From the IMG/VR virus record IMGVR_UViG_3300044729_001490, positions 1-64,000 of that record: 64,000 bases of DNA; one strand, 5' to 3'. Positions 9,782 through 44,834 of the stretch are shown here, piece by piece. Each line of letters starts with the position of its first letter. Position 1 is the stretch's first letter. This DNA is from a virus. The position numbers and the translations under genes are program-made. The notes under the pieces were generated by a model, which saw only the letters and a program-made list of their open reading frames with translations, was not told the origin of the DNA and searched no databases.

Positions 9782-9804
9782 TTTTGTGACAGCGTGTCAC
9801 AAAA
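9782..9804. repeat. Dispersed palindrome, copy 1
   Basis: Perfect 10-nt arms around a GCG centre (core GTGACAGCGTGTCAC with T4 and A4 flanks). It ends 21 nt before the ATA that begins the next gene, the same distance as the copy at 55536 has to the terminase ATG. There is no T-tract on the 3' side, so it is not a standard terminator. Confidence 0.85.
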
Positions 9805-17587: not shown

Positions 17588-20500
17588 ATGGGAACATTGA
17601 CGCAAAGAATAGAGCAAGCAGAAAAGGATGCTGCGAAGTCTGGCGATGAAATTGAAGGCTTGGGGCGAGTTGATGAACGCGAAAAGGCGATTATTGACCG
17701 CCACAAAAGCGAATTGCCTGGAGGAAGTCTAATGCAAAAGATTTCCACTGGATTGGCAGACATGGAGATAGAAGACCGCCGACAGAAACGTGCTTACGCA
17801 GAAAAGCCACCAACGGCACTTGCACAAATGACGGTTGACCCAGCGAGAGAGATGCTTGCAAACCTTGGCGACAGAGCAAGAGTTCTTGATGTTTATCGCA
17901 AGTTGTCTCCAGAGCAACGACAGGAAGCGTTAAAACTAGCCCCAGGTATTGCACAGATGGGCGGCGATGATCGAGGTGGCTTTACTGGTCGCGTAGGAAG
18001 TGCAGTCGCTCGCGGAATAGCTGGTGTGTCTCAGCCGATTATGGAGTTGCTGGGTGGTGGAGGTAGTTCCGAAGAAATTGAGTTCATTCGCAAACTGGAA
18101 GGGGCTGCAGCTCAAGAGTTCAATCCAGCTCTCCCAAGTGATCCGTGGTATGAACGCGGTCCATTGCAAGCAGTCGAGATGCTTCCGTGGATGGCGACAA
18201 CGGTAGGCGGTGCTGGGCTCGGGCGTGCTGCTGCTACTGGAATTGCTGGACGATTAGCTACTAGCGCTGCTGCTGGCAGCAAAGCGGCTGGCGTCGTCCA
18301 GAAGGCTGGACAGGTAGTTGGAAGTCTTCCGACCAAAGTACCAGTAGTTGGGAAATATATACCTGCATTGACTGCTGGCAAAGCTGGCGAGTTGGCTGGA
18401 ATCACAACAGCGGCATTTCCATCGCAATACGCACAAGAAGTCGACCAGCTTAAAGCGTTGGGCATGGCTGATGATACAAGACTGCGACTCTTGGCTGGAG
18501 GAACAGCGGCGGTTACTGGTCTTATTGAGGGGATTGTTCCAAATCCGTTTGGTGGCGGAAAAGTGTCGTTGACCGAGGGTGCTACTAAAGCTGCAAGACA
18601 GTATCTTTGGAACGCTGCTAAGAATGCTCCTGCAGAATTAACGGAAGAGTACCTACAAGGCGTTACGAGCGGTCTTGGCGAGCATGTCGCACAACATATT
18701 GGAAATGCAGCGGTTGATAAAGACGGAAATATTACCCCAATACAGAAGAAGTCTATTGCAGATTCTTTCAGTAAAGGCTGGAAGCAAGCGCAAGAAGCAG
18801 CGTTACCTATGGCGTTTCTGCTTGGCGTCCCAGCTGTTGGTGGAGCTAGTCTAACGGCAGCGCGAGCACAACGATTGCAACAAACTCTATCTAAGGGTTT
18901 TGTTTCAGAAGATGACGCTAAGCAGCTGGGTATATACGGCAACAGCCGCAAAGAACGAGAGGCTAGCGCGAAGGCGGAACTCGAGAAACTGCAAGCTCAA
19001 GTCGCTCAGGAGTCAACTGCAACAAACGAAACTGCCGCAAGTGCAGAGTTGCCAGTCACTCTTGGAGCAAAGGAATTTACTTCTCCTTCGCTGCCAGAGC
19101 AGTCAGTACCCACTGATGAAGAGCAAGTTAAGTCGCAGTATGCTGAAGAAATCGCACGTCGACGAGCTGCAAAAACTCAACCACAACCAACTGGTGACAC
19201 CGCACCACCACCCGAACAAACGCCGCCTGAAGACGTGGCACCTTTTATTTCAGAGGAGCAAATCCGTGACAGCGTGTCACCAGTGCCACCCACACAGACT
19301 GAAGTTCGTGACAGCGTGTCACAAAATGAACAAGTACCTGCTGTAGATGCTATTGGCGAGCGAATGAAGATAATGAATACGCCTGTTGTGCGTTCTAGTA
19401 TCTTTACTGACAAAGATAACATTCGATATGAGATGTTTGAATCTGATGACGGCAAAAGTGGTATTGTTCGGTCGACAGACGTCGACTCTGGTAATGTCGT
19501 TTCTATTAAAAAGTACCCGAGCATCAACACTGCCAAGAATGCGTTTGATAAGGTTCAGGGAAGTCGAGAACAATCGCAACCCACTGCACAGCCTGCTGCG
19601 CCCGAAGCGACCGTCACTACTTCGGTGCCACCAAGTAAAGCGATAGAGCCGTTCTTAACGCCTGAATGGCGAGCTAATCGCAAGAAGGAAATTACAGAAA
19701 GACCAGGCGCACCTGTTCCTAACGGAGAAAAGCAAAGAGCACTCATCGAGAAGGCAGTAGAAGAGCAGATTAATAAAGAAATCGAGATGCTGACGAAGTA
19801 TCCTCCTGGAACGAAGCTAATGGTTGGCGGCTACGAGCAAGTTCAGACGGTAATGCCTGATGGAAAGTTGTTGGACGCAAGTGGTCGGACTTACGCTGGT
19901 AATGCTGGTACTGTTCTTAAAGACTACGAGCCTGAGCAGATCAGAGTCATATCGAGTCTAGAGCCGAAAGTGAAGCAATCTGCTTCTATGGTGCCAGAAG
20001 GCATATTAGAAGTAAGCGACGAATCGTCGGCTGCAGAAATTGATCGCAGGATGAAAGAGAAATCTCGTGACACGGTGCCTCGAGGCGACTTAAAGCGTGC
20101 ATTGAACAGATGGAAAGGCGATCCGTCTTCGATGCAATTACTGATCAGTGACATCCAAAGCGGTCAGTCTCCATCGAGCCAGAACGGCGTAGACGCCGCA
20201 TCGATCCTGAACGAGGTCAGCTCTGCGCCAATGAATCCTGTCACGCTTTACCGTGGCGATTCTAGTAGTAGAGGTGGAGTACTTGAACTCACTTCAGATA
20301 GAAACGTCGCTGAAGGTTTTGCAAAACATTACGGAGGGCAAGTTACGGAGTTTCCTGCTGGGACAATTCAAGCGTTAAATATAGAGGAAGCTACTGGACG
20401 TTCTGATGTGGAAAAGGGGTGGATCGGGCTGCTGCCAGATCCGAATGCGAAAAATAAAGGATCCGTGTCTCCTGGCGTGGTGTCAGGGGAGTCTCAACGT

Positions 20501-23500
20501 GACCAGGAGAAACAAGATGCTCCAAAGACCAAGAAGGGAGGTGATCCTAATGAAGTCGAAGCCAAAGATGGGCGGCAAAAGCAAGCCAATGCCGATGCCG
20601 AAACCAAAGCCGAAGCCGAAGGGCAAGTAGGCTCTAAAAAAGGTCGGGCGGCGGAGGAAACTCCGTCGTCTGATTCTTCTGTTGGTAAGCCAAGACCGCC
20701 AAAGGGCTACAAGCCTTTGAAGGAGTTCACGCCTGTCGTTACGCAAACTCAATCACCAAATTTGGAGTTGCGAGACAATAGGGACGGCATAAAGGAGCTA
20801 GGTCTTAAAGCTGGCGAAGCGGTAGGTTATCGCGTCTATCCCAAGCGAGGGTCTGTCAAAGGTGGCTACTGGCAGTACGGGACCGTTCAGTATGATCCGA
20901 CCGGTAGCCATGCGTCTATTAAGCTTGAGGACGGGACTGTTGAGTCTGTTGGTGGCTCGCGTCTTATTCGCCTTGAGAAAGAAGAAGCTTCTTCGCCTGA
21001 GTCTTCTAAGTCGTCAGAAAAGGAAAAGGCTGATCGCGATGAAAAGCTTCGAGAGCGATTAAAGACTCTCGATTACGATAACCTGCGAAAGCTCAACAAG
21101 GATGCAATCATCCAGGTTGGTGATGAAGTCATCGGTGATGTTGGTGGTCTTGCTCTTGACGAATTGAATCGCCGTATGGATGAAGATGCGCTCGAGGCGA
21201 TGATTGAGGCGGAGTTCGATAAGCAGACAGAGCCAGTTCAGCCGAAGAAGAAGCGACCTGTTCGTAGGGAAAAAAGCGAATCCGTTCCTTTGCCGAAAAA
21301 GGCTACAGGGAAAAAGGAAACTCGCATTGAGCAAGCGGCAGACAAAGCGCGTAAAGAGGCTGACGACCTTTGGGCTCAATGGGGAAGCGTTGGCGGTGAC
21401 AAGCTGACAGCAGGTTTGGACCCCGAGTTAGCGGCTTTGGCAGTACGAATCGCACTTGCTGAAATAAAGGCTGGAACATTGTCGTTTGCGTCGTTTGTTG
21501 AGAGGACGACAGCGAAAATTCCTGCGGCAATGCTTGAAAAGAGCAAGCCGTACATGGAGATGGCTTGGAAGGTTGCGCACAAGCGGGGTATGACGAGCGA
21601 CCCTGGAGGGAAGTTTGACGCTTACTTGAAAAAGTACGGAACGGCAGAAAATCCAAATCGAGTCGCTTTGGGTAAGTATTTTGCATCAAGACTGCGAGAC
21701 GGAGCTTCTTATGCTCGAATTACAGATGCGAGAAAGGAAGCCGCAGAGCTAATCGGTGGTTCGCCAAAAGATGGAACACAAGCAATCAAGACGATTGACG
21801 AAGCAATAGAGCTTGGTGTCGTAATAGTAGCTAGAGACATCGCGCAGAACGGAGAGACTGACTCTGCCATCTACGATGAGCTTGTTGACTTGTACGAAAG
21901 GCAACCAAATTTAGGAACGAGAACAAGCACCTCGATGCTTAATCAGGCTTACAGTACGCCAGCTCCGTTGGCGTTCCTGGTTAATCGACAGGCTGGAATT
22001 ACGCAAGAGGATACTGTTTACGACTCGTCGGCTGGCAATGGAATGTTGCTAATTGTTGGAGGTAAGCGAATTGCCAACGAGCTGAACCCCGACAGAGTTG
22101 AAGCATTAGAGTCTCAAGGAATCGAGACAACGAGCAATGACGCGACCGAGTTTGAGTTGGACAAACCCATTACTGCGCTGGCAATCAATCCTCCATTTGG
22201 TGAGGTGAAGCAAGAGGATGGAAGCATCAAGCAATGGACAGTTGATGGTGTTAAGACAGACAAAGTGGATCATGCAATCACAATCAAGTCGTTGTCGGAA
22301 ATTCCTGATAGTGGCAAGGTTGCAATCATCATTGGCGCGAAAGGATTCGAGCAAAGAAAATCCAAAGACGATTCAAGGCGAGGAAAAGCGTACTTGAACG
22401 GAAAGGCTTTCTATGACTTTGTGTACGACAAATATAACGTCACGGACCATTACACAGTTGATGGCGACTTGTATTCTCGTCAGGGGGCTTCGTTCCCTGT
22501 CGATGTGATAATCATTGAAGGACGAGGCAAGTCGTCTCGTCCAAAGCCGTACAACATCATTGGCGGCGGAATACCACAAGTGTTTAGTTCTTGGGAGGAC
22601 TTAAAAAATGTCAAGTTACTGGGGAATATCCGACCAGCTGAAAGTGGAACTGGACGAGGGGCAGTTGACACTCGACAAGAAGGATTATCTGAAAAAACTA
22701 CAGGAGACGCTCGACAGGGACCAGAAGGAGTTCGAGCGGGAGCCAGGGGAGTTAATCAACAGGATGGACGAGACGTTCAGGGACCAGGGCAATCTGAAGA
22801 CCTGGGGGGACGTAATAAAGATGCCAATGTTTCTGGACAAGCTGAATCGACTGTGGGGAGCGACCAGCAGTCGTCCAATGAAACCAGAGGAGATAAGCAA
22901 CAATCGAGAGCCAGTAATGGCGGAAACGATAGTCGGGTTTCTGGAGGAGCCAAGAAGCGTGATGCTGGAATCGACAAACTAGATTCGGAAGAGTCAGAGG
23001 TCAAAGGCGACCAGTATCAGTCTGCTTACACGCCAAGCTCTAAGTCAAAGAGTGTTGATGCGCTTATTCCGAACAACCATCAGACAGCTGTTCAGGCGGC
23101 ATTGGATTCCGTTGAGGAGCAGTACGGAGATATAGATGAGTTTGTAGCAAAAGAGCTTGGAGTAAACCAGAAACATCTTCAGAAAGTATTCTCAGCAGAG
23201 CAGGTTGATGCTCTGGCGTTGGCTATAGCAAGACACAAGGATGGGCGTGCGTTTATTCTTGGCGACCAGACAGGCGTTGGGAAAGGTCGCGTGGCAGCTG
23301 GTATGCTCATTTATGCTAAGAAGCAAGGATTAGCTCCAGTATTCTTCACTGAGAAACCAACTCTATACGCAGACATAATTCGGGATTTGATTGATACTGG
23401 ATTCAGCACTGACAGTTCTCCATTCAACCCGTTGATTACGAACGTCACAGCAAAAAAGTCAGACCAGATAGAACTGCCTGACGGAAGGGTTCTTAGGCAA

Positions 23501-26500
23501 ACTGCTGGAGCAGACGAAAGAAATATCACTGAAGCGGTTGGTAATTTCCTTGCTGGTAAAGGCTTGGTGGCAACATCGAAGAAAGCTACCAAAAAGAAAG
23601 CCGCACAGATGGAAAGCTACGATGCAATCTTCACGACGTACAACCAGATGGTGACGGTCAATGGAGAGCTCAAGCCACGGCATACGTTTTTGCAACAGTT
23701 GTCGCCTCGAGCGTTTTTTGTCCTAGATGAAAGCCATAACGCTGGCGGTTCCGCGCAGGATAGCGACCGAGAAAGAGCGGCAAGACCTGACGACATTAAG
23801 ATACCAGTGTCTGAGATGGTTCGGAATCTGATTGAGAATGCTTCTGGTGTTTACTTCTCAAGCGGTACTTATGCCAAACGTCCTAGTGTCATGGACTTGT
23901 ACGCAAAGACAGGCATGACGGCAGCGACTGGACAAGACGGTGACTCGTTGGCTTCTTCTATCGCAGCTGGTGGAGTGCCGTTGCAGCAAATTGTTTCGCA
24001 ACAGCTTGTTGAGTCGGGAGCGTATCTCAGACGAGAGCGTTCGTTTGATGGAGTTGAGTTCAAGCCAGAAGTGTATGACGTCTCTACTGAGGGGGCGGAA
24101 CAGTCTGCGGCTATCTTCAGAGCAATCAATGCGTTCGACAAAATCAAGGGCAAGCTTGTTGAAGAAGAACTGGAGGACGGAGTTACAAGTGCAGGGGGTT
24201 CTATAAAGCCAGACTGGGCGACTGGCGAGGCTGGCATGACCAGCACTAACTTTTCTTCGATATTGTGGAATCTAACGGACCAGATGTTGCTGGCAGTTAA
24301 GTCAGACGTCATTGCCGACGAAGCAATAGCCTCGATAAAAAGGGGCGAATCGCCAGTAATCTATGTTGATGCGACTATGGAGGCGGCATTAAACGCTTAT
24401 ATCGAATCGTCTGGTCTTCAGGTTGGCGAGAAATCAGAGTTTTCGTTTCGTGATCTTTTGCAGAGATACTTGGACAGAAGCAGGGAGGTTTTGGTTCAAA
24501 GAGATGTTGCAGATAAGGATTCATACGAGCAGGTCCGGCTTACGGATGAGCAGTTGGGTAAAATCGGTCTAGCGGCGTTTAATAGGGCACAAGAACTGAT
24601 TGACAACTTCAGTGCAGACTTGCCTGCCTCGCCTATTGATTGGATTCGAAAGCGTATTGAAGACGCTGGATATTCGTTTGGTGAATACACTGGGCGACAG
24701 GTGGTGATGCGTTACGAAACGTCTGATACTGCTACAGTAGAAAAACGACCAGAGGACGAAGTAGGAGCAGCAAACAGAATCAATCTTATTCGCAAGTTCA
24801 ATAACGGCGACTTGGATGTTTTGCTATTTAATCGGTCTGGGTCAACTGGAGTCTCGATGCACGCAAGCGAGAAGGTGAAAAACCAGAAGCCTCGCCACAT
24901 GATTATTGGGCAACCGTCAAGCAATATCGACACATTTATGCAATCGCTAGGCAGAGTCCATAGAACAGGACAGGTAACTTTGCCGAAGTTCACATTGGCA
25001 ATGACTTCTCTTCCGTCTGAGATTCGCCCCTCGAGCGTTTTGGTGAAAAAGCTTGCTAGCTTGAATGCCAATGTTACTGCATCAGACAAAGGAAGTGTTT
25101 CATTCGATGTGCCAGACGTAATGAACGTCATTGGAGACAGAATCGTCGCTGAGTATTTGGCTGAGAATGACGAGCTAAACAGAGCGTTAAACGAAGGTGA
25201 AGAGGAAGGTCTTGTTACTGTAGGAAGGACTGGACAACCAAAAGTTGTTCCTGGGATCGCAAGGAAAGCAAGCGGTCGGCTGGCAATCATGCCAATCAAG
25301 ACACAGCAAGAGTTCTGGGATAGCGTCACGGAGACATTTGCTGACACTATCGCTGAATTAGATCGCATGGGAGCGAATCCGCTTTCAGCTCGAGTAGCCG
25401 ACTTGGACGCGAAGACAGTAGAGTCGTTTCCTGTGTTCGAGGGAGATCCAGATTCGGCGAACGTGTTCGATAGACCAGCGTATATCGAGAAAGTAATTGC
25501 CAAGCGTCCAGGTAAGCCGATGACTCCTGAGGAGATCATGCAGAAAGTCAATTCTTTTTACAAGATAGATTCGTCGGATATGAAAGCTTTAGAAGCAGCG
25601 ATGAATACATGGGAGATGAATCGAAGGGAAGAAGCTATCGCGATACACGCTAAGCGTATTGAAGAAATACGAAACGAAGGATTGGCAAAAGGAACAGATC
25701 CAGAGCGAATTAAAAACAGTATTGATAGAGAGAACCAGCAGAAGCAAAATTTCCTGTATTTGATGCGAGCGTTCATGCCTGGAAGTTCTGTATCGGTTTG
25801 GGAAAGTGGACCTTCTGATGGTTTGGATGTTATTCCAGGGGTAGTTTTGTCTATCGAGAGAAAAGGTAAAGAAGGCAACCCCTTGTCTCTTTCGAAATGG
25901 CGAGCTGAAATAGCGATTGGTTCTCCAGATCGCATTATTAGGATGTCGCTTTCCCAGCTTAGAGTCGCATCGGATCAAAACGACAAGTCAGGTCGAAACA
26001 GCGATTTAGAGGAAGACACTGAAGATAACGTAAAGATTTTTCCGAACCGAGAAATTGTCAGCAAAAGTGTATTAGATGATTTCGTTGAGTCTGAAGTATC
26101 GACTATGGAAACGCGGTATATCGGGACTGGAAACATCCTGGCTGCGTTTAATTTGTTCCGAGAGCAAAAGGGAAGGGTAACGTTCTTTCGCGACTCGGAT
26201 GGAAATCTTCAAAGAGGCGTCTTGCTTCCGCGACGATTCAAAATCGATAAATGGATTAAGGACCAGCCTGTTGGATTTGATAAAGCAGAACAAATACAGC
26301 AATTCCTAGCATCGGGCAATAACTTACAAACACCAGACAGGGCGCTAAGCGTTATGTCTGTTCGTGGTGAGCTTGTTTTGAGAGCGCCGAAGTCGAAAGC
26401 CAGAGGTGGAAAGTACACGCTAAATCAGGTAATCCTGAAAGCGTCGTCGCCACAAGAGTTTGTTTCCATTGGCTCCAGGATGGAGATGGTGGTTGACAAC

Positions 26501-29500
26501 CCTGCAAAGCAAAATACTGTCATCGAGGCAATACTTTCCATTTCTGGATTGCAGGCTACGACGGAAAAGGAACTTGCTAGAAGAATCAAGAGCGAAGGCG
26601 TACCGAAAGACAGCAGCGGCTTGAGTGCAAAAATCAATGAGTTGCCAGATACGGAAACGTTGATGCAAACCGAGCCTGATGACGTCAATGCTTCCATCCG
26701 AACGCAAGCCTTGGACATTGCTTTGGCGGCTGAGGATGCGGGAATCAAGACGTTTGATAGGTTGGTTGCGTATTCGGTCAAGACAGTCGGCGAACGTCGC
26801 ACACGCGAAATTGGAGCGTATCTAAGGCTTGCTGCTGATGTGGCTGGTTTTGCTGGCGTTCGTCAGGTCGGCGATGTTCTTGGAACGGCAAACGTCACCA
26901 GGGAGCAAGCTGTCTCGTTTGCCAAGGCGGCGTTCCCGATGTTGTCGGACGAGCAGACTGAGGCTGGAGTAGCGATATTGGAGCAGCTTGGTTTGCTGAA
27001 CAAGGTTGGTTTGGCACCTGCAGGAACTCCGATTCCAAGTTTGCCTCAAGCTGATGATTCTATTGTTCGCGGTGGAGAGCAGATTAAGTCAGACAGGGTA
27101 AAAGGCTGGACGCAGTTCATTTCTGCCACCAGGGCTATCATTGGGGCGACCAATAAAGCGGACGTATCGACGTTCATTCACGAGTTCTTCCATCCGACTC
27201 GCAAATTCCTTCTGGATCGCAGCATTCCGCAAGACCAGAGATATGGCATTACCGACGAAGATATCAAAGCGTTGGAGGAATATTCTGGAGTTGAAGATGG
27301 CAAGTGGACTCGAGAAGCAGAAGAGAAAGCAGCGAAGGCTTGGGAGCAATACTGGTTCGAAGGTCGTTCTCCATCAAAATCACTCAAAGGTATTTTTGAG
27401 AAGATGGCTCGTTGGATGCGAGATGTGTACAGCGGCATTCAGCAAATCACTGGTGGTCAGTTGCCGCAAGAAGTACGTGCACTGTTTGACAAGTTAGTGC
27501 AGCGAGGCGGAGACGGGCAATTTACTGACACGGTGTCAGTAAATGAGGACCCAGACACAACAAGCATTAAGAACGCCGCAGTAAACGAACTTCGCGCTAA
27601 TCGTGGAGAGCCTGCTTTGGCTGACGTGGCGTCTCAAACGCAACAGCAGTGGCTTGATGCTGCAGATTCAATGCTGCAAGACGACCCAATGATTGGCGAT
27701 AGGTTAGTAAAAGAGCTTAACGCGAATGCTCGCAACTTGAGCAACATTGAAGTTGCTGTAATGCAGATTCATTATCGGCAGTTAAATAATCAACTAGAGA
27801 GAGCTTCAGACCGATTGTTTAAGGCGAAGGACGATAAGGATTCAGTTGCTTCAGCGCAGGCGATGATGGATACGGACATCATCATGAATGCTCTTGCGGA
27901 GATGGAAGAAGCTACCAAGAAAGCTGGTAGAGAGTGGGGACGTGCGGGTGTCGCTCGACAAATCGCTTTGGAAAAAGACTTTTCTTTGGCTGCATTGATG
28001 CGAAAGGCTCGTATTGCCAATGCGGGAAATGCTTTAGACGAGAAGCAGCAAGAAGAAATGCGAGCACTCGCCAAGAGGGTAGCTGAACTTGAAGGGCAGT
28101 TGGCTAAAGCGAACCAAGAAAAGCTTGATGCTGAGCGAGAGAAGAATGTCGATGCGCAGATTGAGGACAGCAAGAGCAAGGCTGTGCCGATTCCAAAAGC
28201 CGTCCGCAGCAAAGCGGTAGACAAGCTGACTGCGTTCAGGAACAAGTTCGCATCTGTTTTCGCTTTAAGTAGCAAGGGCGATACGGAATCGTTGTTTGCA
28301 ACGCAAGACGAGCAGATGGCTGACGAAGCCAAGACGGTCATTCAGGCGTATGTAGACATGGGTATCTTCTCGCTGGGTGAGTTTCTTGCGAACATTCGAA
28401 AGGATTTGGGTTCCGACATTCCTGTTTCTGCCAGGGCGGCGTTTGCGACTGCGTGGAAGGAAATGCATGACAACGGAGATATCCCAACTCCAATGGTTGA
28501 TGTGAACAATGTTCGAGCTCTGTCTAGGCTTGCAAAGCAAATTGAGCGTTCGTTAGTGGAAGCTGGAATTACGAAACGTGACGATGTTGTCCAGGGAGTG
28601 CACGAGTCGCTGCAAGAGTTCATTCCTGAAATTACAGTTCGCGAAACGATGGATGCGATGAGCGGGTACGGTCAGTATTCGCAGTTGTCTGACAACGAAA
28701 CCGACAAGATTCTTCGAGATATAAACGGGCAGTTGCAGCAGTTGGCTAAACTGGACGATATGCGCAACAAGATTGCTCCAGCAAAGACTGGTGTCGAAAG
28801 GCGAGAGCCAAGCGATGAAGAGCGACGTCTGATTGCTCAGGTTAATGAAATGAAACGACGTGGCGGGTTTGTTGTTACGGATCCAGAGTCGCAACTAAAA
28901 ACAGCGATTGCTGCAACCAAAACTGCGTTACGAAACAGAATCAAGGATGTGCAGTTTGAAATAGACCGAAGGGAAAAGATTGTTCGTACTCGCACCGATA
29001 CGAAGGCGGACCCAGAAGTTATAGAGCTTCGCAAGCAGCTAGATGAGCTTATGAAGCAGCATAAGGAGTTATTCCCAAAGCCTGAAGCTACGATGGACCA
29101 GCGAATTGCTGCGACCAGTCGAGTTCTGGACAGGGTGATTGCTGACTTGGAAAAACAATTGCAAACGGGTGAGTTCGCTGGACCGAGGTCAGCAGAGCCA
29201 ATATCGACGCCAGAGCTGGATGCTAAGAGAGCTCGCATTGATGCGTTACGGGACCAGCGAGATTTGCTGCGTGGAGTTAAGAATCGCACTCCAGAGCAAA
29301 TCGACAAAGCGTACAAGGCGAGCTTGATGAAGAAGATTGCTGACTACAAAGACATGGCTTTGCATAGCTACTTCGACCCAAAGCCAAAGAAAGAAGTCAG
29401 GGTTCTTACTCAAGAGCAATTAGCACTGAAGCTTGAGCTGCAGAAAGTGAAGGACGAGTTTTTCCGCCTGGCAGGTTTGTATCGACTGCAGAACATGAGC

Positions 29501-31129
29501 CCTAAGGAAAGAGCTTGGGATTACATCAAGGAAACAGTTCATTTGTCTCGAGCGCTGATGACGTCCTTGGACTTCTCGGCGGTGTTTCGTCAAGGTGGAG
29601 CTGTTGCGTTTGCTCACCCGCGAATGGCGGCTGAGACGAGCAAGGAGATGTACAGCGCGATGCGACGGGAAGCATCGGCATTTGATACAGCGGAAAAAAT
29701 CCGCAATGACGACATGTACCAGTTTGCCATAACGGCTGGTCTGTCTATCACCGAAGAGGAAGGAAAAATTACCAAGCAAGAAGAGGCGTTTATGGGGCGC
29801 TGGGCGAGAACAGGCATTGGAGCGCCAGGCTCGAGTCTGAATGTGTTCAGTCAGAAGTTACTGACTCCAATCGCATCTTCTGCGCGAGGCTACATGACAT
29901 TCCTTAACGGGATCCGCTTCAAGCTGTTCAAGCACATGGTTGCCAATCTAGGCAAAGGCGGTCAAGTGACTGCCGACGAAGCCAAGGTAATCGCCATGTA
30001 CATCAACGCGGCTACAGGTCGGTCGGAGCTTGGTCCGATGATGAAGTGGGCAGAGCAAGCCAACATGCTGTTCTTTGCACCTCGATTCGTCGCATCGCGA
30101 TTCCAGTACCTTGGAATGCCGTTGTGGTTGCTGGGAAGCACAAAGGTGTCTGGGCGAGTCAAGAAGGCGATTGCCATGGAGTACATTCGGCACGCGACTG
30201 GCGTCGGGTCGTTCCTTGCGTTGACGGTGGCTCTTGGAAGCCTGCTTGGGGACGATGATGAAGAAAAGCCAACGGTTAGCCTGGACCCTCGTTCAAGCGA
30301 CTTCTTAAAGATTAAGCTTGGCGAGACTCGAATCGACCCGATGTCTGGCTTGTCGCAGGTTATGGTTTTGATGGGGCGTATTAGATACGGACAGCGAGTA
30401 GACCCAGATGGGGAGGTTGTGGATTTGCGAGGCGAAAAAGCTCCATACGGAGGACTTGGAGTGGCTGGTGTCATTGGGAACTTTATCCGAACAAAGCTTG
30501 CTCCAATCCCTGGTGCAGCATTGGATATAGCAACTTTGGAGAATGTTGTCGGTCAGGATGTGACTCCTTACTCGTCACTTGTGAACTTGTTTATTCCGTT
30601 GTCTCTCCGAGAAATCAGGGATACGGCTGAATCGCGAGGAATCCCGCAAGGCGCAGTAATCTCGCTGCTTTCATTGCATGGCATGGGAGCCAGCACGTAC
30701 GGTCCAGAGTCGAATTACAGGAAGGGCACGATTGAGCAGCGCAAGAAGCAGTTCGATAAAGACCTGAAGAAGATGACGTTCGATTCAAAAGAGCCTGCTT
30801 ACAAAGGGCTTCTGAGCAAAGAGCAGATGACTGAAGTTGCGGAACGTCGCGAAGACCGCAAGCAAGGGTTAGTGTACGCCGCGTCAGCGAACCCGATTCG
30901 AAAAACGTACAAAAACGAGGAGACGTATAGTCAAGCGGTAAAAGAAAGGGACGCTGCCTTGGAAAGCCTTAGAAAGTCAGGCTTTACGCTGGATGATTCT
31001 CGCAAACTGCTAATTAAACACTGGGAATCGTCCTACGGATCCGCGAGAGAGATGCGAGGCGGGGTTCGTGTTTACAAAGAAGCATTAAGTGACCGATTGA
31101 AACAGCTGAGAAAAGTGTATTCGCAATAG
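17588..31129 (+). CDS. Giant polyvalent protein: ART-like, N6-MTase, SNO helicase, HExxH peptidase, LPD38
   Basis: One uninterrupted 4,513-residue frame. Regions in order: hydrophobic Ala/Gly helices about 195-425; Pro-rich linker; ADP-ribosyltransferase-like segment (LYRGDSSSRGG, R889); small beta domain about 1073-1131; adenine methyltransferase with DSSAGNGM (1479-1486) and NPPF (1534-1537); linker 1674-1798; Strawberry-notch-type helicase with Walker A GDQTGVGKGR (1892-1901), DESHN (2047-2051), GVSMHA (2421-2426) and GRVHRTGQ (2455-2462); mixed domains; HEFFH peptidase signature (3198-3202); coiled coils about 3300-3950; LPD38-like C-terminus with FFAPRFVASRFQ (about 4162). Such polyvalent proteins are thought to be packaged and ejected to act on host DNA and defences. 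Two in-linker palindromes and two nested frames are listed separately. Processing is not known. Confidence 0.85.
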   Translation: MGTLTQRIEQAEKDAAKSGDEIEGLGRVDEREKAIIDRHKSELPGGSLMQKISTGLADMEIEDRRQKRAYAEKPPTALAQMTVDPAREMLANLGDRARVLDVYRKLSPEQRQEALKLAPGIAQMGGDDRGGFTGRVGSAVARGIAGVSQPIMELLGGGGSSEEIEFIRKLEGAAAQEFNPALPSDPWYERGPLQAVEMLPWMATTVGGAGLGRAAATGIAGRLATSAAAGSKAAGVVQKAGQVVGSLPTKVPVVGKYIPALTAGKAGELAGITTAAFPSQYAQEVDQLKALGMADDTRLRLLAGGTAAVTGLIEGIVPNPFGGGKVSLTEGATKAARQYLWNAAKNAPAELTEEYLQGVTSGLGEHVAQHIGNAAVDKDGNITPIQKKSIADSFSKGWKQAQEAALPMAFLLGVPAVGGASLTAARAQRLQQTLSKGFVSEDDAKQLGIYGNSRKEREASAKAELEKLQAQVAQESTATNETAASAELPVTLGAKEFTSPSLPEQSVPTDEEQVKSQYAEEIARRRAAKTQPQPTGDTAPPPEQTPPEDVAPFISEEQIRDSVSPVPPTQTEVRDSVSQNEQVPAVDAIGERMKIMNTPVVRSSIFTDKDNIRYEMFESDDGKSGIVRSTDVDSGNVVSIKKYPSINTAKNAFDKVQGSREQSQPTAQPAAPEATVTTSVPPSKAIEPFLTPEWRANRKKEITERPGAPVPNGEKQRALIEKAVEEQINKEIEMLTKYPPGTKLMVGGYEQVQTVMPDGKLLDASGRTYAGNAGTVLKDYEPEQIRVISSLEPKVKQSASMVPEGILEVSDESSAAEIDRRMKEKSRDTVPRGDLKRALNRWKGDPSSMQLLISDIQSGQSPSSQNGVDAASILNEVSSAPMNPVTLYRGDSSSRGGVLELTSDRNVAEGFAKHYGGQVTEFPAGTIQALNIEEATGRSDVEKGWIGLLPDPNAKNKGSVSPGVVSGESQRDQEKQDAPKTKKGGDPNEVEAKDGRQKQANADAETKAEAEGQVGSKKGRAAEETPSSDSSVGKPRPPKGYKPLKEFTPVVTQTQSPNLELRDNRDGIKELGLKAGEAVGYRVYPKRGSVKGGYWQYGTVQYDPTGSHASIKLEDGTVESVGGSRLIRLEKEEASSPESSKSSEKEKADRDEKLRERLKTLDYDNLRKLNKDAIIQVGDEVIGDVGGLALDELNRRMDEDALEAMIEAEFDKQTEPVQPKKKRPVRREKSESVPLPKKATGKKETRIEQAADKARKEADDLWAQWGSVGGDKLTAGLDPELAALAVRIALAEIKAGTLSFASFVERTTAKIPAAMLEKSKPYMEMAWKVAHKRGMTSDPGGKFDAYLKKYGTAENPNRVALGKYFASRLRDGASYARITDARKEAAELIGGSPKDGTQAIKTIDEAIELGVVIVARDIAQNGETDSAIYDELVDLYERQPNLGTRTSTSMLNQAYSTPAPLAFLVNRQAGITQEDTVYDSSAGNGMLLIVGGKRIANELNPDRVEALESQGIETTSNDATEFELDKPITALAINPPFGEVKQEDGSIKQWTVDGVKTDKVDHAITIKSLSEIPDSGKVAIIIGAKGFEQRKSKDDSRRGKAYLNGKAFYDFVYDKYNVTDHYTVDGDLYSRQGASFPVDVIIIEGRGKSSRPKPYNIIGGGIPQVFSSWEDLKNVKLLGNIRPAESGTGRGAVDTRQEGLSEKTTGDARQGPEGVRAGARGVNQQDGRDVQGPGQSEDLGGRNKDANVSGQAESTVGSDQQSSNETRGDKQQSRASNGGNDSRVSGGAKKRDAGIDKLDSEESEVKGDQYQSAYTPSSKSKSVDALIPNNHQTAVQAALDSVEEQYGDIDEFVAKELGVNQKHLQKVFSAEQVDALALAIARHKDGRAFILGDQTGVGKGRVAAGMLIYAKKQGLAPVFFTEKPTLYADIIRDLIDTGFSTDSSPFNPLITNVTAKKSDQIELPDGRVLRQTAGADERNITEAVGNFLAGKGLVATSKKATKKKAAQMESYDAIFTTYNQMVTVNGELKPRHTFLQQLSPRAFFVLDESHNAGGSAQDSDRERAARPDDIKIPVSEMVRNLIENASGVYFSSGTYAKRPSVMDLYAKTGMTAATGQDGDSLASSIAAGGVPLQQIVSQQLVESGAYLRRERSFDGVEFKPEVYDVSTEGAEQSAAIFRAINAFDKIKGKLVEEELEDGVTSAGGSIKPDWATGEAGMTSTNFSSILWNLTDQMLLAVKSDVIADEAIASIKRGESPVIYVDATMEAALNAYIESSGLQVGEKSEFSFRDLLQRYLDRSREVLVQRDVADKDSYEQVRLTDEQLGKIGLAAFNRAQELIDNFSADLPASPIDWIRKRIEDAGYSFGEYTGRQVVMRYETSDTATVEKRPEDEVGAANRINLIRKFNNGDLDVLLFNRSGSTGVSMHASEKVKNQKPRHMIIGQPSSNIDTFMQSLGRVHRTGQVTLPKFTLAMTSLPSEIRPSSVLVKKLASLNANVTASDKGSVSFDVPDVMNVIGDRIVAEYLAENDELNRALNEGEEEGLVTVGRTGQPKVVPGIARKASGRLAIMPIKTQQEFWDSVTETFADTIAELDRMGANPLSARVADLDAKTVESFPVFEGDPDSANVFDRPAYIEKVIAKRPGKPMTPEEIMQKVNSFYKIDSSDMKALEAAMNTWEMNRREEAIAIHAKRIEEIRNEGLAKGTDPERIKNSIDRENQQKQNFLYLMRAFMPGSSVSVWESGPSDGLDVIPGVVLSIERKGKEGNPLSLSKWRAEIAIGSPDRIIRMSLSQLRVASDQNDKSGRNSDLEEDTEDNVKIFPNREIVSKSVLDDFVESEVSTMETRYIGTGNILAAFNLFREQKGRVTFFRDSDGNLQRGVLLPRRFKIDKWIKDQPVGFDKAEQIQQFLASGNNLQTPDRALSVMSVRGELVLRAPKSKARGGKYTLNQVILKASSPQEFVSIGSRMEMVVDNPAKQNTVIEAILSISGLQATTEKELARRIKSEGVPKDSSGLSAKINELPDTETLMQTEPDDVNASIRTQALDIALAAEDAGIKTFDRLVAYSVKTVGERRTREIGAYLRLAADVAGFAGVRQVGDVLGTANVTREQAVSFAKAAFPMLSDEQTEAGVAILEQLGLLNKVGLAPAGTPIPSLPQADDSIVRGGEQIKSDRVKGWTQFISATRAIIGATNKADVSTFIHEFFHPTRKFLLDRSIPQDQRYGITDEDIKALEEYSGVEDGKWTREAEEKAAKAWEQYWFEGRSPSKSLKGIFEKMARWMRDVYSGIQQITGGQLPQEVRALFDKLVQRGGDGQFTDTVSVNEDPDTTSIKNAAVNELRANRGEPALADVASQTQQQWLDAADSMLQDDPMIGDRLVKELNANARNLSNIEVAVMQIHYRQLNNQLERASDRLFKAKDDKDSVASAQAMMDTDIIMNALAEMEEATKKAGREWGRAGVARQIALEKDFSLAALMRKARIANAGNALDEKQQEEMRALAKRVAELEGQLAKANQEKLDAEREKNVDAQIEDSKSKAVPIPKAVRSKAVDKLTAFRNKFASVFALSSKGDTESLFATQDEQMADEAKTVIQAYVDMGIFSLGEFLANIRKDLGSDIPVSARAAFATAWKEMHDNGDIPTPMVDVNNVRALSRLAKQIERSLVEAGITKRDDVVQGVHESLQEFIPEITVRETMDAMSGYGQYSQLSDNETDKILRDINGQLQQLAKLDDMRNKIAPAKTGVERREPSDEERRLIAQVNEMKRRGGFVVTDPESQLKTAIAATKTALRNRIKDVQFEIDRREKIVRTRTDTKADPEVIELRKQLDELMKQHKELFPKPEATMDQRIAATSRVLDRVIADLEKQLQTGEFAGPRSAEPISTPELDAKRARIDALRDQRDLLRGVKNRTPEQIDKAYKASLMKKIADYKDMALHSYFDPKPKKEVRVLTQEQLALKLELQKVKDEFFRLAGLYRLQNMSPKERAWDYIKETVHLSRALMTSLDFSAVFRQGGAVAFAHPRMAAETSKEMYSAMRREASAFDTAEKIRNDDMYQFAITAGLSITEEEGKITKQEEAFMGRWARTGIGAPGSSLNVFSQKLLTPIASSARGYMTFLNGIRFKLFKHMVANLGKGGQVTADEAKVIAMYINAATGRSELGPMMKWAEQANMLFFAPRFVASRFQYLGMPLWLLGSTKVSGRVKKAIAMEYIRHATGVGSFLALTVALGSLLGDDDEEKPTVSLDPRSSDFLKIKLGETRIDPMSGLSQVMVLMGRIRYGQRVDPDGEVVDLRGEKAPYGGLGVAGVIGNFIRTKLAPIPGAALDIATLENVVGQDVTPYSSLVNLFIPLSLREIRDTAESRGIPQGAVISLLSLHGMGASTYGPESNYRKGTIEQRKKQFDKDLKKMTFDSKEPAYKGLLSKEQMTEVAERREDRKQGLVYAASANPIRKTYKNEETYSQAVKERDAALESLRKSGFTLDDSRKLLIKHWESSYGSAREMRGGVRVYKEALSDRLKQLRKVYSQ
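19266..19322. repeat. Dispersed palindrome, copies 2 and 3 (inside giant gene)
   Basis: Two exact GTGACAGCGTGTCAC cores at 19266-19280 and 19308-19322, 42 nt apart. Both are read as RDSVS in the same frame, in the Pro-rich linker. Their in-frame presence shows the element is tolerated in disordered linkers. Confidence 0.85.
20550..20630 (+). CDS. Nested small basic peptide with consensus SD (inside giant gene)
   Basis: An ATG at 20550 is preceded by AGGGAGGTGAT (20535-20545), a near-perfect anti-ribosomal match at ordinary spacing. The frame differs from the giant gene and encodes 26 residues of Lys, Pro, Met and Gly (begins MKSKPKMGGK, ends KPKPKGK) with no acidic residues. It lies in a linker of the host frame rich in Lys/Ala/Glu, so the giant frame is weakly constrained here. 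Function is unknown; a DNA-binding or antimicrobial-like peptide is a guess. It may be fortuitous, since the peptide is short. Confidence 0.35.
   Translation: MKSKPKMGGKSKPMPMPKPKPKPKGK
22608..22982 (+). CDS. Nested overlapping gene candidate in methyltransferase-helicase linker
   Basis: A 124-residue frame that starts 9 nt after GGAGG (22594-22598). The giant gene is read here as a disordered Gly/Gln/Asp/Arg linker, but the second frame gives a compact, charged, helical protein: MSSYWGISDQLKVEL, YLKKLQETLDRDQKEF, INRMDETFRDQG, KTWGDVIKMPMFLDKLNRLW, with no cysteine and few rare residues. Other alternative frames across the giant gene do not look like this. It is either an overprinted gene or a former in-frame segment now shifted. 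No family is recognised. Confidence 0.5.
   Translation: MSSYWGISDQLKVELDEGQLTLDKKDYLKKLQETLDRDQKEFEREPGELINRMDETFRDQGNLKTWGDVIKMPMFLDKLNRLWGATSSRPMKPEEISNNREPVMAETIVGFLEEPRSVMLESTN
27521..27543. repeat. Dispersed palindrome, variant copy 4 (inside giant gene)
   Basis: Perfect 10-nt arms around CGG, with CTGACA in place of GTGACA. It is read as FTDTVSVNE just after the peptidase-containing region, again at a domain border. The arm has changed symmetrically on both sides, which argues for selection on pairing or dyad symmetry. Confidence 0.6.
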
Positions 31130-32086: not shown

Positions 32087-32113
32087 TTTTTACTTTTGTT
32101 TTGGAGATTGAGC

Positions 32114-32893
32114 ATGAGTGAGAGTCTAAATTTGTACCAGCGTATCAACAAAGTCATGGAGAGCATGGGAGCCATCGGCAAAGGTGGTCGTGTTGATTAC
32201 GGGGAAAAGTACGCTTTTCATCGCATCGATGACATCGACGACAAGTTGCGTGTCGCGTTGATTGAGCATGGTGTGGTTTGCACCGTAACGGAAATCACCG
32301 ACAGGAAGCTGGAGTACTTTGTCGAAAAAGACAGGTACGGCAAGGACCGTGGTGCGTGGTACGCAGAGTGTGCAATCACCATTGAGTTGGTGAACGTAGA
32401 CAGACCAGACGAACGAACCAAGATTGTTGGTTGGGGGCAAGGGCTCGACTACAGCGACAAGGCGACTGGTAAAGCGGTTAGCTACGCCTCGAAGTCAGCC
32501 TACTTATCAGCTTTCCACCTGCGAGGTCAGCCAGACAACGAGCATGACAATATTGTCAAGCCAGGCAAGGATGTCAACACCACCGCTGTTGTTACTCCTG
32601 CCGTGGAGTACGACGACCTAGACGAGGCTTCGCAAGGATGGGTGAATGCAATCAATCAGTCGGACGACGCTGAAAAGCTAGCTGAGCTTGGTATTGATTG
32701 GCGAAAAGAGGCAAAGAATGTGCAGAGCGCAACATTGCCTTACTATTGCGACATGTGGAAGAAGTTTCTGAATAAGGCTTCCACTAAGCAAGAACTGCAC
32801 TCGCTAGGTCTTATCCTAGCGAAAGAAGCGAAGAGTGTTGGCGATGGAGTTCGCCCGTTCTATAAAGCCAAGGCAGCTACATTGAGTGAGTAA
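32114..32893 (+). CDS. erf: ERF-family single-strand annealing protein
   Basis: A 259-residue protein; ATG at 32114 is favoured by GGAG at 32103-32106 over an upstream ATG. The N-terminal half holds the ERF signature: GGRVDYGEKYAFHRIDDIDD, then LRVALIEHGV and GWGQGLDYSDKATGKAVSYA. The C-terminus is a helical Lys/Glu region that may bind partners. It works with the upstream nuclease to anneal homologous strands. A palindrome copy follows its stop by 16 nt. Confidence in the family is high by motif. Confidence 0.85.
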   Translation: MSESLNLYQRINKVMESMGAIGKGGRVDYGEKYAFHRIDDIDDKLRVALIEHGVVCTVTEITDRKLEYFVEKDRYGKDRGAWYAECAITIELVNVDRPDERTKIVGWGQGLDYSDKATGKAVSYASKSAYLSAFHLRGQPDNEHDNIVKPGKDVNTTAVVTPAVEYDDLDEASQGWVNAINQSDDAEKLAELGIDWRKEAKNVQSATLPYYCDMWKKFLNKASTKQELHSLGLILAKEAKSVGDGVRPFYKAKAATLSE

Positions 32894-32959: not shown

Positions 32960-33241
32960 ATGAGTGAAGTGGCTACAAGCGAAGTTGTTATTGAGAAGAC
33001 CGAAGACCCGATGATGGAAGAGATTCGGTCGCAGTTGAGAATTAGTTCAGCTGTGCGTGAGTACCTGCGTGCAGTGGAGCAATTCGAGACTGCAAGCAAG
33101 GAGTTCCACGATAGCTGCAAGGCTGTTCGTGAGAGCATTAAACCAGACTCGAGGTTCGTCCTGCGTAGTGGCTACAAGCATTACTTGGTGACGAGTGATG
33201 GCGGAAACAATTTCAACGTAGAGTCGATTGAGATTATCTAG
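32960..33241 (+). CDS. Hypothetical protein in recombination operon
   Basis: A 93-residue acidic helical protein. ATG at 32960 has AGGAG (32948-32952) at proper spacing; an in-frame ATG at 32918 is rejected because it overlaps the palindrome. Helices (EEIRSQLRISSAVREYLRAVEQFETASKEFHDSCKAVRES) precede a short beta-strand segment (RFVLRSGYKHYLVTSDGG). No family is recognised. Its place after ERF suggests an accessory DNA-metabolism role. Confidence 0.55.
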   Translation: MSEVATSEVVIEKTEDPMMEEIRSQLRISSAVREYLRAVEQFETASKEFHDSCKAVRESIKPDSRFVLRSGYKHYLVTSDGGNNFNVESIEII

Positions 33242-33270
33242 TCAGCATAACTTTTTTATAGAGAGCTATT

Positions 33271-33718: not shown

Positions 33719-34471
33719 ATGGTGAAGAAAGAGTTTAACGGCAAGATTCGAGTCGACAGTCGCATTGAGGCGTTGATTCCTCCTCTCGAAAAAGAGCAAT
33801 TAAGGACTCTCGAAGACTCCATCTTGGCGGAAGGAGGCTCGCATAGTCCTCTTTGGTTATGGGGCGATTTGCTTGTAGACGGTCACCATCGTTACAGGCT
33901 ATGCAAGAAACACAAGCTGCCGTTCGAAGTGGTGCAAGTGTATGAAGATGCTGAAACGCTTGAAGAGGTTGAGTACCGCATTAAGCGTGACGCAATCGGA
34001 CAGAGAAATCTTACTCTAGGTGCTCAGTCGAAGTTTCGCGCTGAGATGGTCGCGTATCACATCAAGAGCGGTTCGAAAAAGAGAGCTGCCGTCAAGACGG
34101 TTGCTGACGAATCAGAGGTGTCTATTCGCAAAGTGTACCGAGACGTTGAGCGAGCTGAACTGGTAGCAACGATTGACGATGAGGTAAAGCCTGTCACGGC
34201 AAACATGTCTACTCCAGCGGTCAAGAAACTCGCCAGCTTGCCTAAGCCTAAGCAGAAAGCAGCTGCGGAGCGTGCTGGTGGTGACGGCAAGAAGCTCGAG
34301 AAAGAGGTCAAGAAGGATACTCCTGCAGAAGCTGCTGCGAAGGTGAAGAGCATTGCGCACCAGCATCGAGACAAGTTGGTTCGCGCTATCGACGATTACC
34401 ACCAGCACAAACCGAACGCTAAGGAACGCGACAGGCTGGTGAAAGTGACACAAAACGTCTCGTTGTGGTGA
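33719..34471 (+). CDS. ParB-like nuclease/DNA-binding protein
   Basis: A 250-residue protein. ATG at 33719 has AAGGAA (33705-33710) at good spacing; the ATG at 33710 lies too close to it. The N-terminal ParB-type fold shows LEKEQLRTLEDSILAEGG and LLVDGHHRYRLC, the arginine-containing loop of that family. A helix-turn-helix follows (ESEVSIRKVYRDVERAELV). The C-terminal half is Lys/Ala-rich with PAEAAAKVKS (nt 34322-34353), the segment copied into 44642-44673. Such phage proteins act as transcription or plasmid-like partition regulators; the target site is unknown. Confidence 0.7.
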   Translation: MVKKEFNGKIRVDSRIEALIPPLEKEQLRTLEDSILAEGGSHSPLWLWGDLLVDGHHRYRLCKKHKLPFEVVQVYEDAETLEEVEYRIKRDAIGQRNLTLGAQSKFRAEMVAYHIKSGSKKRAAVKTVADESEVSIRKVYRDVERAELVATIDDEVKPVTANMSTPAVKKLASLPKPKQKAAAERAGGDGKKLEKEVKKDTPAEAAAKVKSIAHQHRDKLVRAIDDYHQHKPNAKERDRLVKVTQNVSLW

Positions 34472-37500: not shown

Positions 37501-38264
37501 AGCTAATTCATGGAAGTTCTCTTACTGTTAGTGTTCCTCAATTTGACCACATTGTTACTTCGCCGCCGTACTACAAACTGCGAAAGTACGGTGGAAAAGG
37601 AGAGCTTGGTTGGGAACCCAGCGAGCAGGAGTACATCGATAACTTGGTTCAGGTGTTTACGCGATTATGGAAACAGCAACCAGAGGAAGGGACGTTGTGG
37701 ATAAACATAGGCGATAAGCACGATAAAGGCAGGCTGATGGGTTTGCCTTGGAGGTTGGCTATAGCGTTGATGCCACTCTATACATTGCATTCCGACAATA
37801 TTTGGCACAAGCGCAGAATCATGCCGCAATCAGCGAAGACGCGATTTACTTGCGACCATGAGTATGTGTTTTTGTTTAGCAAGTCGTCGAAAGGATACAC
37901 TTTTAACCATGAAGCAGTCATGCAAAAATCCCTATGGGCGCATGACCGCAGAGCAGGAAAAGGAGCGCATCGATACAGGCAAAAGAGGGAGCGAGATGGT
38001 TTAGGTCATACGGCTCCAGTGGTAATTAACGAGAAGCGATTGTGTCGTACTGTCTGGAATGATATTTCGACTAGCCAGGAAGATAAAAACCATTCTGCGA
38101 CCTTTCCTGTGGCTATACCAGAAAGGTGCATATTGGCTGGAAGTAATCCTGGCGACACAATCCTCGACCCCTTTTGCGGCACTTGCACTACTGGCGTGGC
38201 AGCGGAAAAGCATGGACGCAAGTTCGTAGGAATCGATACCAATAAGGAGTTTTTCCCAAAATGA
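37497..38264 (+). CDS. DNA methyltransferase (N4-cytosine/N6-adenine, beta class)
   Basis: A 255-residue protein. The catalytic motif TSPPYY (21-26) comes first, then a target-recognition region, then the S-adenosylmethionine motif DPFCGTCTTGVAA at the C-terminus, an order of the beta class. SPPY suggests N4-cytosine or N6-adenine methylation. It shares ATGA overlaps with the nuclease upstream and the RuvC-like gene downstream, so the four genes are co-translated. It may protect the site cut by the preceding nuclease. Confidence 0.85.
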   Translation: MKLIHGSSLTVSVPQFDHIVTSPPYYKLRKYGGKGELGWEPSEQEYIDNLVQVFTRLWKQQPEEGTLWINIGDKHDKGRLMGLPWRLAIALMPLYTLHSDNIWHKRRIMPQSAKTRFTCDHEYVFLFSKSSKGYTFNHEAVMQKSLWAHDRRAGKGAHRYRQKRERDGLGHTAPVVINEKRLCRTVWNDISTSQEDKNHSATFPVAIPERCILAGSNPGDTILDPFCGTCTTGVAAEKHGRKFVGIDTNKEFFPK

Positions 38265-38728
38265 GTTCCATCATCATCGGCATCGATCCATCGCCTCTCT
38301 TGCAAGCGTGCGTCTTGTTTGACGTAACAGAGAAGCGTGTCGTATCGGTAGGCACGTTCAAAGCGGACGATTTGCCTGATGCGTTATTCAAGCAAAAGGT
38401 TGCCATCGAATGGATTGAGTCGTACGGCATGGCAGTCGGGCAAGAAGTGTTTCGGACTGTGTTTCAAATTGGACGCATGCAGCAACAACTTGGAGTTGTT
38501 CGTCTGATTCCAAGGCGAGATGTAAAGCTAACGCTATGCGGTTTAGCTCGAGCGAAGGACACCAACATTCGCCAAGCGTTGATAGACGCGATTGGAGAGG
38601 TTGGCACGAAGAAGAATCCAGGACCGCTTTACGGCGTTTCTGGGCATTACTGGGCAGCGTTAGGCGTTGCTTACACGGCAAGTCGGTGTGAGCCGACGGA
38701 ACATGAAGCGTTTTTTCACGTAGAGTAA
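38261..38728 (+). CDS. RuvC-like Holliday-junction resolvase
   Basis: A 155-residue protein. The start GIDPSP supplies the first catalytic Asp (D9). An Glu-rich helix IEWIESYGMAVGQEVFRTV holds the second acidic position, and the end has the phage-RuvC tail (NIRQALIDAIG, GTKKNPGPLYGVSGHYWAALGVAY). The usual final catalytic Asp is not evident in this tail. It should resolve recombination or branched packaging intermediates. A symmetrical palindrome begins at its stop codon. Confidence 0.75.
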   Translation: MSSIIIGIDPSPLLQACVLFDVTEKRVVSVGTFKADDLPDALFKQKVAIEWIESYGMAVGQEVFRTVFQIGRMQQQLGVVRLIPRRDVKLTLCGLARAKDTNIRQALIDAIGEVGTKKNPGPLYGVSGHYWAALGVAYTASRCEPTEHEAFFHVE

Positions 38729-42028: not shown

Positions 42029-42370
42029 ATGAGTAAGAAGTCTGGCGAATATTTGAATCAAAAGAACTGTAGGTTGTTGAAGATGGACGGCTACAGTGAC
42101 GAAGAACTTAAGAATCTAGGATACGATGAGGATACCATCAGGCGGACTATCGTCGCGCTGAATGGACCTCGCATCAATAAAACCACCAAAAGATGCAAGG
42201 AGTGCGGCGCGAAGTGCTACTACCTAGACCGGGGTGGAGATTGTTACGAATGCGCATTGAAAACGAAGATTGCCAGGGAAGGAAAGATTCCGTCTACTGA
42301 CAAGGTGTTTGCCAACGACGGTTGGAAACAGTGCCAAAAGATGATGGATGACCCAGACGGGTTGATTTAA
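42029..42370 (+). CDS. Hypothetical zinc-ribbon protein
   Basis: A 113-residue protein. The middle has a CKECG...CYYL...CYECA zinc-ribbon-type set. The N-terminus is helical (NLGYDEDTIRRTIVALNG). It starts in the leader containing palindrome copy 7 with GCGAGG upstream. No function assigned; possibly a DNA-binding adaptor. Confidence 0.5.
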   Translation: MSKKSGEYLNQKNCRLLKMDGYSDEELKNLGYDEDTIRRTIVALNGPRINKTTKRCKECGAKCYYLDRGGDCYECALKTKIAREGKIPSTDKVFANDGWKQCQKMMDDPDGLI

Positions 42371-42394
42371 CGATAGGATTATCCGAGGCGACCA

Positions 42395-42742
42395 ATGCCA
42401 GACAGTTACGAATTACATTTACGCCAAATCGCGAGAGCAAAGATGGCAAACCAAAAGACCAAGCCTTCGGATCAATCCGTTGTTCATACGCCTGGACCCT
42501 GGGAGGCAGTTCGGTCATTAACTTGTGGTCATCTCAGAGCGGCACACAATTACCAAGTGGACCCTAAAGAAGAATGGACAGATGCAGACCTTAAATTGAT
42601 TTCGGCAGCCCCCGAAATGCTTAAAGCTTTGCGGCGAATCGTGCGGCATCAGGATTGCATTGGCGGGTCGATGGCGTCCATGTCGTCTACGCGACACATG
42701 GCAGCGCAGGCGATACAACACGCTACTGGAGAGGTCGTGTGA
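42395..42742 (+). CDS. Phage protein with HTPGPW and AAPEMLKAL motifs
   Basis: A 115-residue protein. The pair HTPGPW (near residue 31) and ISAAPEMLKALRR is a combination seen in many small phage proteins of unknown function. The middle is otherwise variable. No catalytic residues can be named. It is followed by a structured RNA-like segment. Confidence 0.55.
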   Translation: MPDSYELHLRQIARAKMANQKTKPSDQSVVHTPGPWEAVRSLTCGHLRAAHNYQVDPKEEWTDADLKLISAAPEMLKALRRIVRHQDCIGGSMASMSSTRHMAAQAIQHATGEVV

Positions 42743-44323: not shown

Positions 44324-44749
44324 ATGATTTCTAAGCTAGTTCGTGCGAAGTTTCGGGTCAAAATCAACAGCCTTTCTGCCGAGTCCAGAATCATCCGCGT
44401 GGAGGAGAGGCGATGTGTCGGACAAAAGCGTTCTTCCGATCGCGGAGTCTTGCGGTGGCATCGGGTCAGCCTGCTGAGAGATGAGCAAAGGGCAACACTT
44501 TTGGCGTATGCCTTCGTTCGTGGCGTTCCTTACAAGGTTGTGGAGGGAAAAGGTGCCACGCCTTCAGATGCAATTATCGGCAGGATTTGCGAGATATCCC
44601 GCAGTCTGGCTTGGCGACGTATCTCGAATGATGACGTCGCCCCTGCAGAAGCTGCTGCGAAGGTGAAGAGCATGCGTCTGGCTTGGCGACGTATCTCGAA
44701 TGATGACGTCGCCTGCTGGATGAGTGGTGTAAAAGAAAATGCGGCTTAA
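44324..44749 (+). CDS. Phage protein with tandem duplication and copied insert
   Basis: A 141-residue frame starting MISKLVRAKFRVK. RDEQRATLLAYAFVRGVPYKVVE is a phage-type motif. Near the end LAWRRISNDDVA occurs twice, in frame, separated by PAEAAAKVKS, which is identical at DNA level to a piece of the parB-like gene. Without this insert the C-terminus would read straight into CWMSGVKENAA. The insertion keeps the reading frame (72 nt = 24 codons), so the gene may still be functional. No domain name is assigned. Confidence 0.6.
   Translation: MISKLVRAKFRVKINSLSAESRIIRVEERRCVGQKRSSDRGVLRWHRVSLLRDEQRATLLAYAFVRGVPYKVVEGKGATPSDAIIGRICEISRSLAWRRISNDDVAPAEAAAKVKSMRLAWRRISNDDVACWMSGVKENAA
44604..44713 (+). 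repeat. 38-nt direct repeat flanking a 34-nt copied parB-like segment
   Basis: The 38-nt unit beginning GTCTGGCTTGGCG at 44604 recurs at 44676. Between them are 32 nt (44642-44673) identical to 34322-34353 in the parB-like gene, plus GC. The period is 72 nt. Confidence 0.85.
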
Positions 44750-44762
44750 CTAAGCCACATTG

Positions 44763-44834
44763 GCGACCATAGCATCAAGGCGATGCAAACGGCTTTCAAT
44801 CCGTCTGAGGTGGGTTCGATTCCTACTGGTCGCA
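44763..44834 (+). tRNA. tRNA-like gene with 8-nt anticodon loop (Glu-UUC or UCA reading)
   Basis: Acceptor stem GCGACCA/TGGTCGC pairs in full. The D-arm is GCAT/ATGC with a 7-nt loop, and the T-arm GTGGG-TTCGATT-CCTAC is canonical. The anticodon arm pairs ACGG with CCGT, leaving an eight-base loop CTTTCAAT. With standard numbering the triplet is TTC (Glu); shifted by one it is TCA. No CCA is encoded. It is probably an expressed phage tRNA or a decayed one; an eight-nt loop is atypical. It sits at the convergent junction of two gene blocks and could mark an integration site. Confidence 0.65.

Follow-up and report, generated by a model that had tools for sequence, protein, structure and literature searches.

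Templated insertions that accompany a tandem duplication are known mainly from eukaryotes, where template switching, microhomology-mediated break-induced replication and polymerase-theta-type joining are the routes described. Cancer and yeast genomes have provided well-studied examples of small duplications that enclose copied sequence; junction microhomology is common in this class of mutation but not obligatory. Structures of similar outline occur in CRISPR biology: Nivala, Shipman and Church reportedly described in 2018 a non-canonical spacer integration, termed "neo-CRISPR", and virus-borne mini-CRISPR arrays are cases in which a virus itself bears a repeat-spacer-repeat unit.

The locus analyzed here lies in a 64,000-nucleotide stretch of DNA (the window), which is part of a 70,387-base IMG/VR virus record. 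As in the eukaryotic cases, a local duplication surrounds a short copy of distant sequence from the same genome, in the same orientation and near a hairpin; unlike them, this phage case has no junction microhomology, comes from a prokaryotic virus and is a single case. In a prokaryotic virus the agents must differ, with ERF/RecA-type annealing rather than polymerase theta. The locus resembles neo-CRISPR in that a 34-nt piece stands between the copies of a duplicated 38-nt target that contains an inverted repeat, outside any array, but it lies in a phage gene, its donor is the same phage, the record encodes no integrase, and its right end is inexact. With virus-borne mini-CRISPR arrays it has in common a repeat-spacer-repeat unit within a virus, whereas the unit here is coding sequence and its "spacer" matches the virus itself and would self-target.

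Within the recipient gene, two exact 38-nt direct copies recur with a period of 72 nt and leave a gap of 34 nt, the first 32 nt of which are identical to a stretch of a ParB-like gene (Table 1). Insert and donor are 10.3 kb apart and share orientation and reading frame, and ten ParB-like residues (PAEAAAKVKS) now stand within the recipient protein. The gain of 72 nt amounts to 24 codons, and the recipient frame stays open from its ATG to its stop codon. Apart from a collagen-like stretch, the 38-nt and 32-nt repeats rank first and second by length among exact direct repeats in the window; from base composition, about 1.4e-10 direct repeats of at least 32 nt are expected in 64 kb. The preliminary description, made from the letters alone, had reported the exact 32-nt match, its placement between identical 38-nt copies, the preserved frame with 24 added codons and a repeat length far above expectation, and we recovered all of these at the same positions.

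Table 1. Coordinates of the features discussed (window positions).
Feature	Coordinates	Strand	Remarks
ERF-family single-strand annealing protein	32096..32893	+	candidate agent
Donor gene, ParB-like, 253 aa	33710..34471	+	uninterrupted; 100% identical to L007 over residues 4-253
Donor stretch	34322..34353	+	exact repeat; 34322-34357 in the one-base-deletion reading
Holliday-junction resolvase-like protein	38261..38728	+	candidate agent
Recipient gene, 141 aa, unassigned function	44324..44749	+	ORF, relatives, alignment, structure model
38-nt duplicated unit, copy 1	44604..44641	+	exact repeat
Hairpin in the 38-nt unit	44613..44641		perfect 8-bp arms GGCGACGT/ACGTCGCC, 3 more pairs past a bulge
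32-nt exact match to the donor stretch (34322-34353)	44642..44673	+	exact repeat
Two junction bases, GC	44674..44675	+	not donor sequence, unless one donor T was deleted
38-nt duplicated unit, copy 2	44676..44713	+	exact repeat
tRNA gene immediately 3' of the recipient gene	44763..44834	+	marks the syntenic empty site

A structure model of the recipient protein (mean pLDDT 75) has a confident three-helix core at about residues 1-95, followed by a low-confidence C-terminal tail in which segments 98-105 and 110-120 fall below pLDDT 50. Insert and duplication both sit in this tail, and the model suggests that the insert was tolerated because it is located there, behind the confident core. Relatives of the recipient gene were recovered from five loci among viral contigs, as five weak matches among phages, and at one locus in a Planctomycetota MAG. 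The preliminary description had called for alignments of homologues of both genes and for an uninterrupted ancestral sequence; homologues of the recipient gene were aligned, and the uninterrupted form exists in relatives. In two records of a different phage (L004 and L005, about 65% protein identity), the recipient gene precedes the same tRNA (DNA 91% identical) and lacks the 24 codons; in the alignment, the more distant relatives L016, L017 and L282 lack them as well. Since relatives carry gene and tRNA but not the insert, the insert is the derived state. Among these relatives we found neither an empty site closer than about 65% protein identity nor an intermediate form between empty and full, and a search with the same sequence in phages (distant mode) and plasmids gave no match.

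The order of recipient gene and directly following tRNA occurs in three lineages (window 44324-44834; L004; L282 10001-10372), and the tRNA in the Planctomycetota contig (L282) is a different one, Ile. In the window and in L004 (10366-10437), the tRNA has an 8-nt anticodon loop, to which ARAGORN assigns the anticodon ttca (Glu or SeC-like). L004 retains the loop sequence CTTTCAAT, while one stem pair has changed on both sides (G-C to A-T). This is possibly a frameshift-type or UGA-reading tRNA.

That the ParB-like gene gave the sequence and the small gene received it follows from two observations: the former is uninterrupted, and the relatives' versions of the latter lack the insert. The 32-nt donor stretch is also present in IMGVR_UViG_3300042568_000881, a record that ends short of the recipient gene. 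Upstream of the donor gene, the close relative L007 has about 370 nt of extra sequence (L007 3407-3777 against window 33240-33245), and the matches flanking it overlap by 6 nt, the pattern expected from an insertion that duplicated a short target.

At the left junction the first 38-nt copy ends and the donor sequence begins at once, with a microhomology of 0 nt. At the right junction the dinucleotide GC precedes the second copy and microhomology is 0 or 1 nt. If one T of 34353/34354 was dropped, GC and the following G fit the donor and the insert becomes 35 nt minus one; the chance of such a one-base-deletion fit is about 5%. The CCTGC motif, which had been put forward as microhomology near the junction, is indeed common to donor and recipient, yet it is two bases out of register with the true junction. 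With this offset it is not the annealing site unless a slip occurred, and we set it aside as the cause. The stem base of the hairpin coincides with the 3' end of the 38-nt unit (44641). In the window, 45 of 63,962 38-mers end at the base of such a hairpin (90 when either end is counted), a figure that serves as a guide only, as the statistic was chosen after the sequence had been inspected. The hairpin folds as DNA at -9.8 kcal/mol (z -4.2), and none was seen at the corresponding place in the L004 relative.

We consider it probable that the structure arose in a single mutational event, a tandem duplication with a templated insertion at the hairpin, brought about by template switching or break repair. 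Replication or repair synthesis of the phage DNA would have halted at the base of the stable hairpin. About 34-35 nt would then have been obtained from the ParB-like gene, either through a template switch or as a short fragment ligated into a staggered break, and synthesis or ligation would have restarted 38 nt upstream of the break, with the result that the 38-nt stretch was made twice. The gain, in frame and in a C-terminal tail that appears dispensable, would have survived, and at least two records of the lineage carry it. The unmatched GC at the right junction is in keeping with error-prone joining. Against this explanation stand the missing microhomology, which simple microhomology-driven template switching predicts at the junctions, and the lengths 38 and 34, which both fall in the range of CRISPR repeats and spacers. 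The idea that a ParB-like fragment was copied during a local duplication is thus supported, whereas the preliminary description's choice of template switching as the agent goes further than the anatomy, which fits staggered-break repair with fragment capture equally well and is also compatible with an off-target CRISPR integrase. Besides the ERF-family annealing protein and the resolvase-like protein, the virus record codes for a helicase, and these three could supply the repair intermediates.

The same anatomy could be read as CRISPR adaptation gone off target, which we regard as unlikely. Here the Cas1-Cas2 of a host would have pasted a ParB-like spacer into the hairpin-bearing site of the phage gene and duplicated a 37-38-nt target, leaving a one-spacer neo-CRISPR in which the loss of one base restored the frame (38 + 35 becoming 72). 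The layout of 38-34-38 (or 37/36 by another reading), whose repeated unit contains an inverted repeat, is that of repeat-spacer-repeat, and the left junction is blunt. On the minus strand the 38-nt unit consists of a hairpin and a 9-nt 3' tail, an arrangement found in many CRISPR repeats. The hairpin site also fits what PMC9456107 and PMC11788318 state, both citing Nivala 2018, namely that Cas1 prefers stem-loops and that integration of a non-canonical kind is on record outside arrays. Among 20 cas1 loci read in Planctomycetota, neighboring arrays include unit lengths of 37/35, 36/34 and 36/36 nt (L291, L294, L302), and cas1 is present in 48 of the 149 Planctomycetota genomes sampled. The 38-mer, however, resembles none of 11 Planctomycetota array repeats beyond chance (22 strand tests; best, 6/300 shuffles), and the link to such a host consists of one gene 39-49% identical to the recipient gene. 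This was the only genome relative of the recipient gene, one locus from 115 stretches and confined to Planctomycetota; a second phage protein, from the tail region, gave one weak match in 294 genomes (E 1.2e-4), and none of the 27 stretches in a host search with it held a relative. The virus record has neither cas1 nor cas4, the insert matches its donor incompletely (32 nt out of 34, or 35 nt minus one under the deletion reading), and no recognized PAM was apparent by eye in the donor flanks, though the motif to expect depends on the host's system. In our viral sample, one comparable clean structure has lengths of 39/36 nt and to that extent favors an integrase, but it lacks a hairpin and a donor in its 39-kb record. 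A genuine CRISPR array carried by the virus was considered separately and rejected: an array detector run over the virus loci reported nothing beyond two repetitive protein-like stretches (L041, L178), and the lack of cas1/cas4 likewise speaks against it.

Improbable, in our judgment, is an origin by another mobile or retroelement mechanism, such as a diversity-generating retroelement or a transposon making long duplications, or in two steps, a duplication and a later insertion. Formally, a duplicated target on either side of an insert recalls a transposon, but the insert comes from the interior of a gene and has no terminal inverted repeats. Diversity-generating retroelements leave adenine-specific changes and depend on a reverse transcriptase; the 32 nt are identical to the donor without changes at A, and no RVT_1 domain was found in the virus record. 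The insert stands exactly between the two copies, for which one event is a simpler explanation than two. An assembly or chimeric-read artefact comes to mind for any metagenome-assembled virus, and we hold it to be very improbable here. The identical allele is carried by IMGVR_UViG_3300034111_000937 (20,723 bases), a record with six differences from the window elsewhere. This argues for a separate haplotype or assembly, though both assemblies may stem from related samples, and since the allele recurs in a second, slightly different record, assembly error is probably not the cause. A junction with sequence from 10 kb away would, moreover, require spanning reads.

The rarity of the structure was gauged against a baseline of 263 loci (3.79 Mb, with some overlap; L001-L018 and L139 excluded), made up of at least 120 viral loci matching an arbitrary 14-mer, pieces of 27 of their records, two further loci and the window. 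With a minimum repeat length of 18 nt, this baseline contains 37 "clean" structures. Four combine a repeat of at least 24 nt with an insert of 20-60 nt: the window (38/34), L140, which equals L112 (39/36), L228 (31/32) and L168 (26/25). L228 and L168 were set aside by eye as protein-repeat genes, and L228 is no longer clean under stricter criteria. Once the protein-repeat genes are removed, L140/L112 is the only other clean structure whose repeats exceed 30 nt and whose insert measures 20-60 nt. It lies near the start of a gene in an unrelated virus record (L112 12396-12509), with two 39-nt repeats around a 36-nt insert, all in frame, and for its insert no donor longer than 12 nt was found in that record. 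A distant donor within the same record was found for the window case only, low-complexity repeat genes excepted, in a comparison covering 121 of the 263 loci. A structure like that of the window is therefore uncommon; the sample gives a rough measure of rarity and holds too few cases to show whether lengths cluster or scatter, the point on which templated repair and spacer integration would differ.

Other features of the window were recorded along the way. The palindrome TGTGACAnnnTGTCACA occurs in ten copies with at most two mismatches, where 0.33 are expected, at window positions 9785, 19265, 19307, 32909, 38732, 41983, 51328, 54147, 55536 and 62984. Most copies are intergenic, and they are candidate operator or ParB-type sites. 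Positions 17588-31129 encode a 4,513-residue protein with Strawberry-notch-type helicase domains. Of the six differences from IMGVR_UViG_3300034111_000937, five lie within 111 bases (42350-42460) and four of them within 14 bases; we examined this cluster as a second templated mutation and found no template.

The 24 extra codons are a confirmed, derived, in-frame templated insertion with a local duplication. The case belongs to a known class of mutation, and its own parts are well documented. A literature search at title and abstract level, a depth that does not establish absence, returned no phage case with a donor, an empty relative and both junctions. Read as a templated duplication, the case is a modest but well-documented mutational fossil, and its interest would rise considerably only with confirmation of the integrase reading. 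In that event, the added codons would be the fossil of a host CRISPR adaptation gone astray in an infecting phage that escaped, and off-target spacer integration would be a source of variation in phage genes. Phage genomes would then hold a readable record of their hosts' adaptation errors, and searches for repeat-spacer-repeat structures with a donor in the same genome would offer a new view of CRISPR adaptation in nature.
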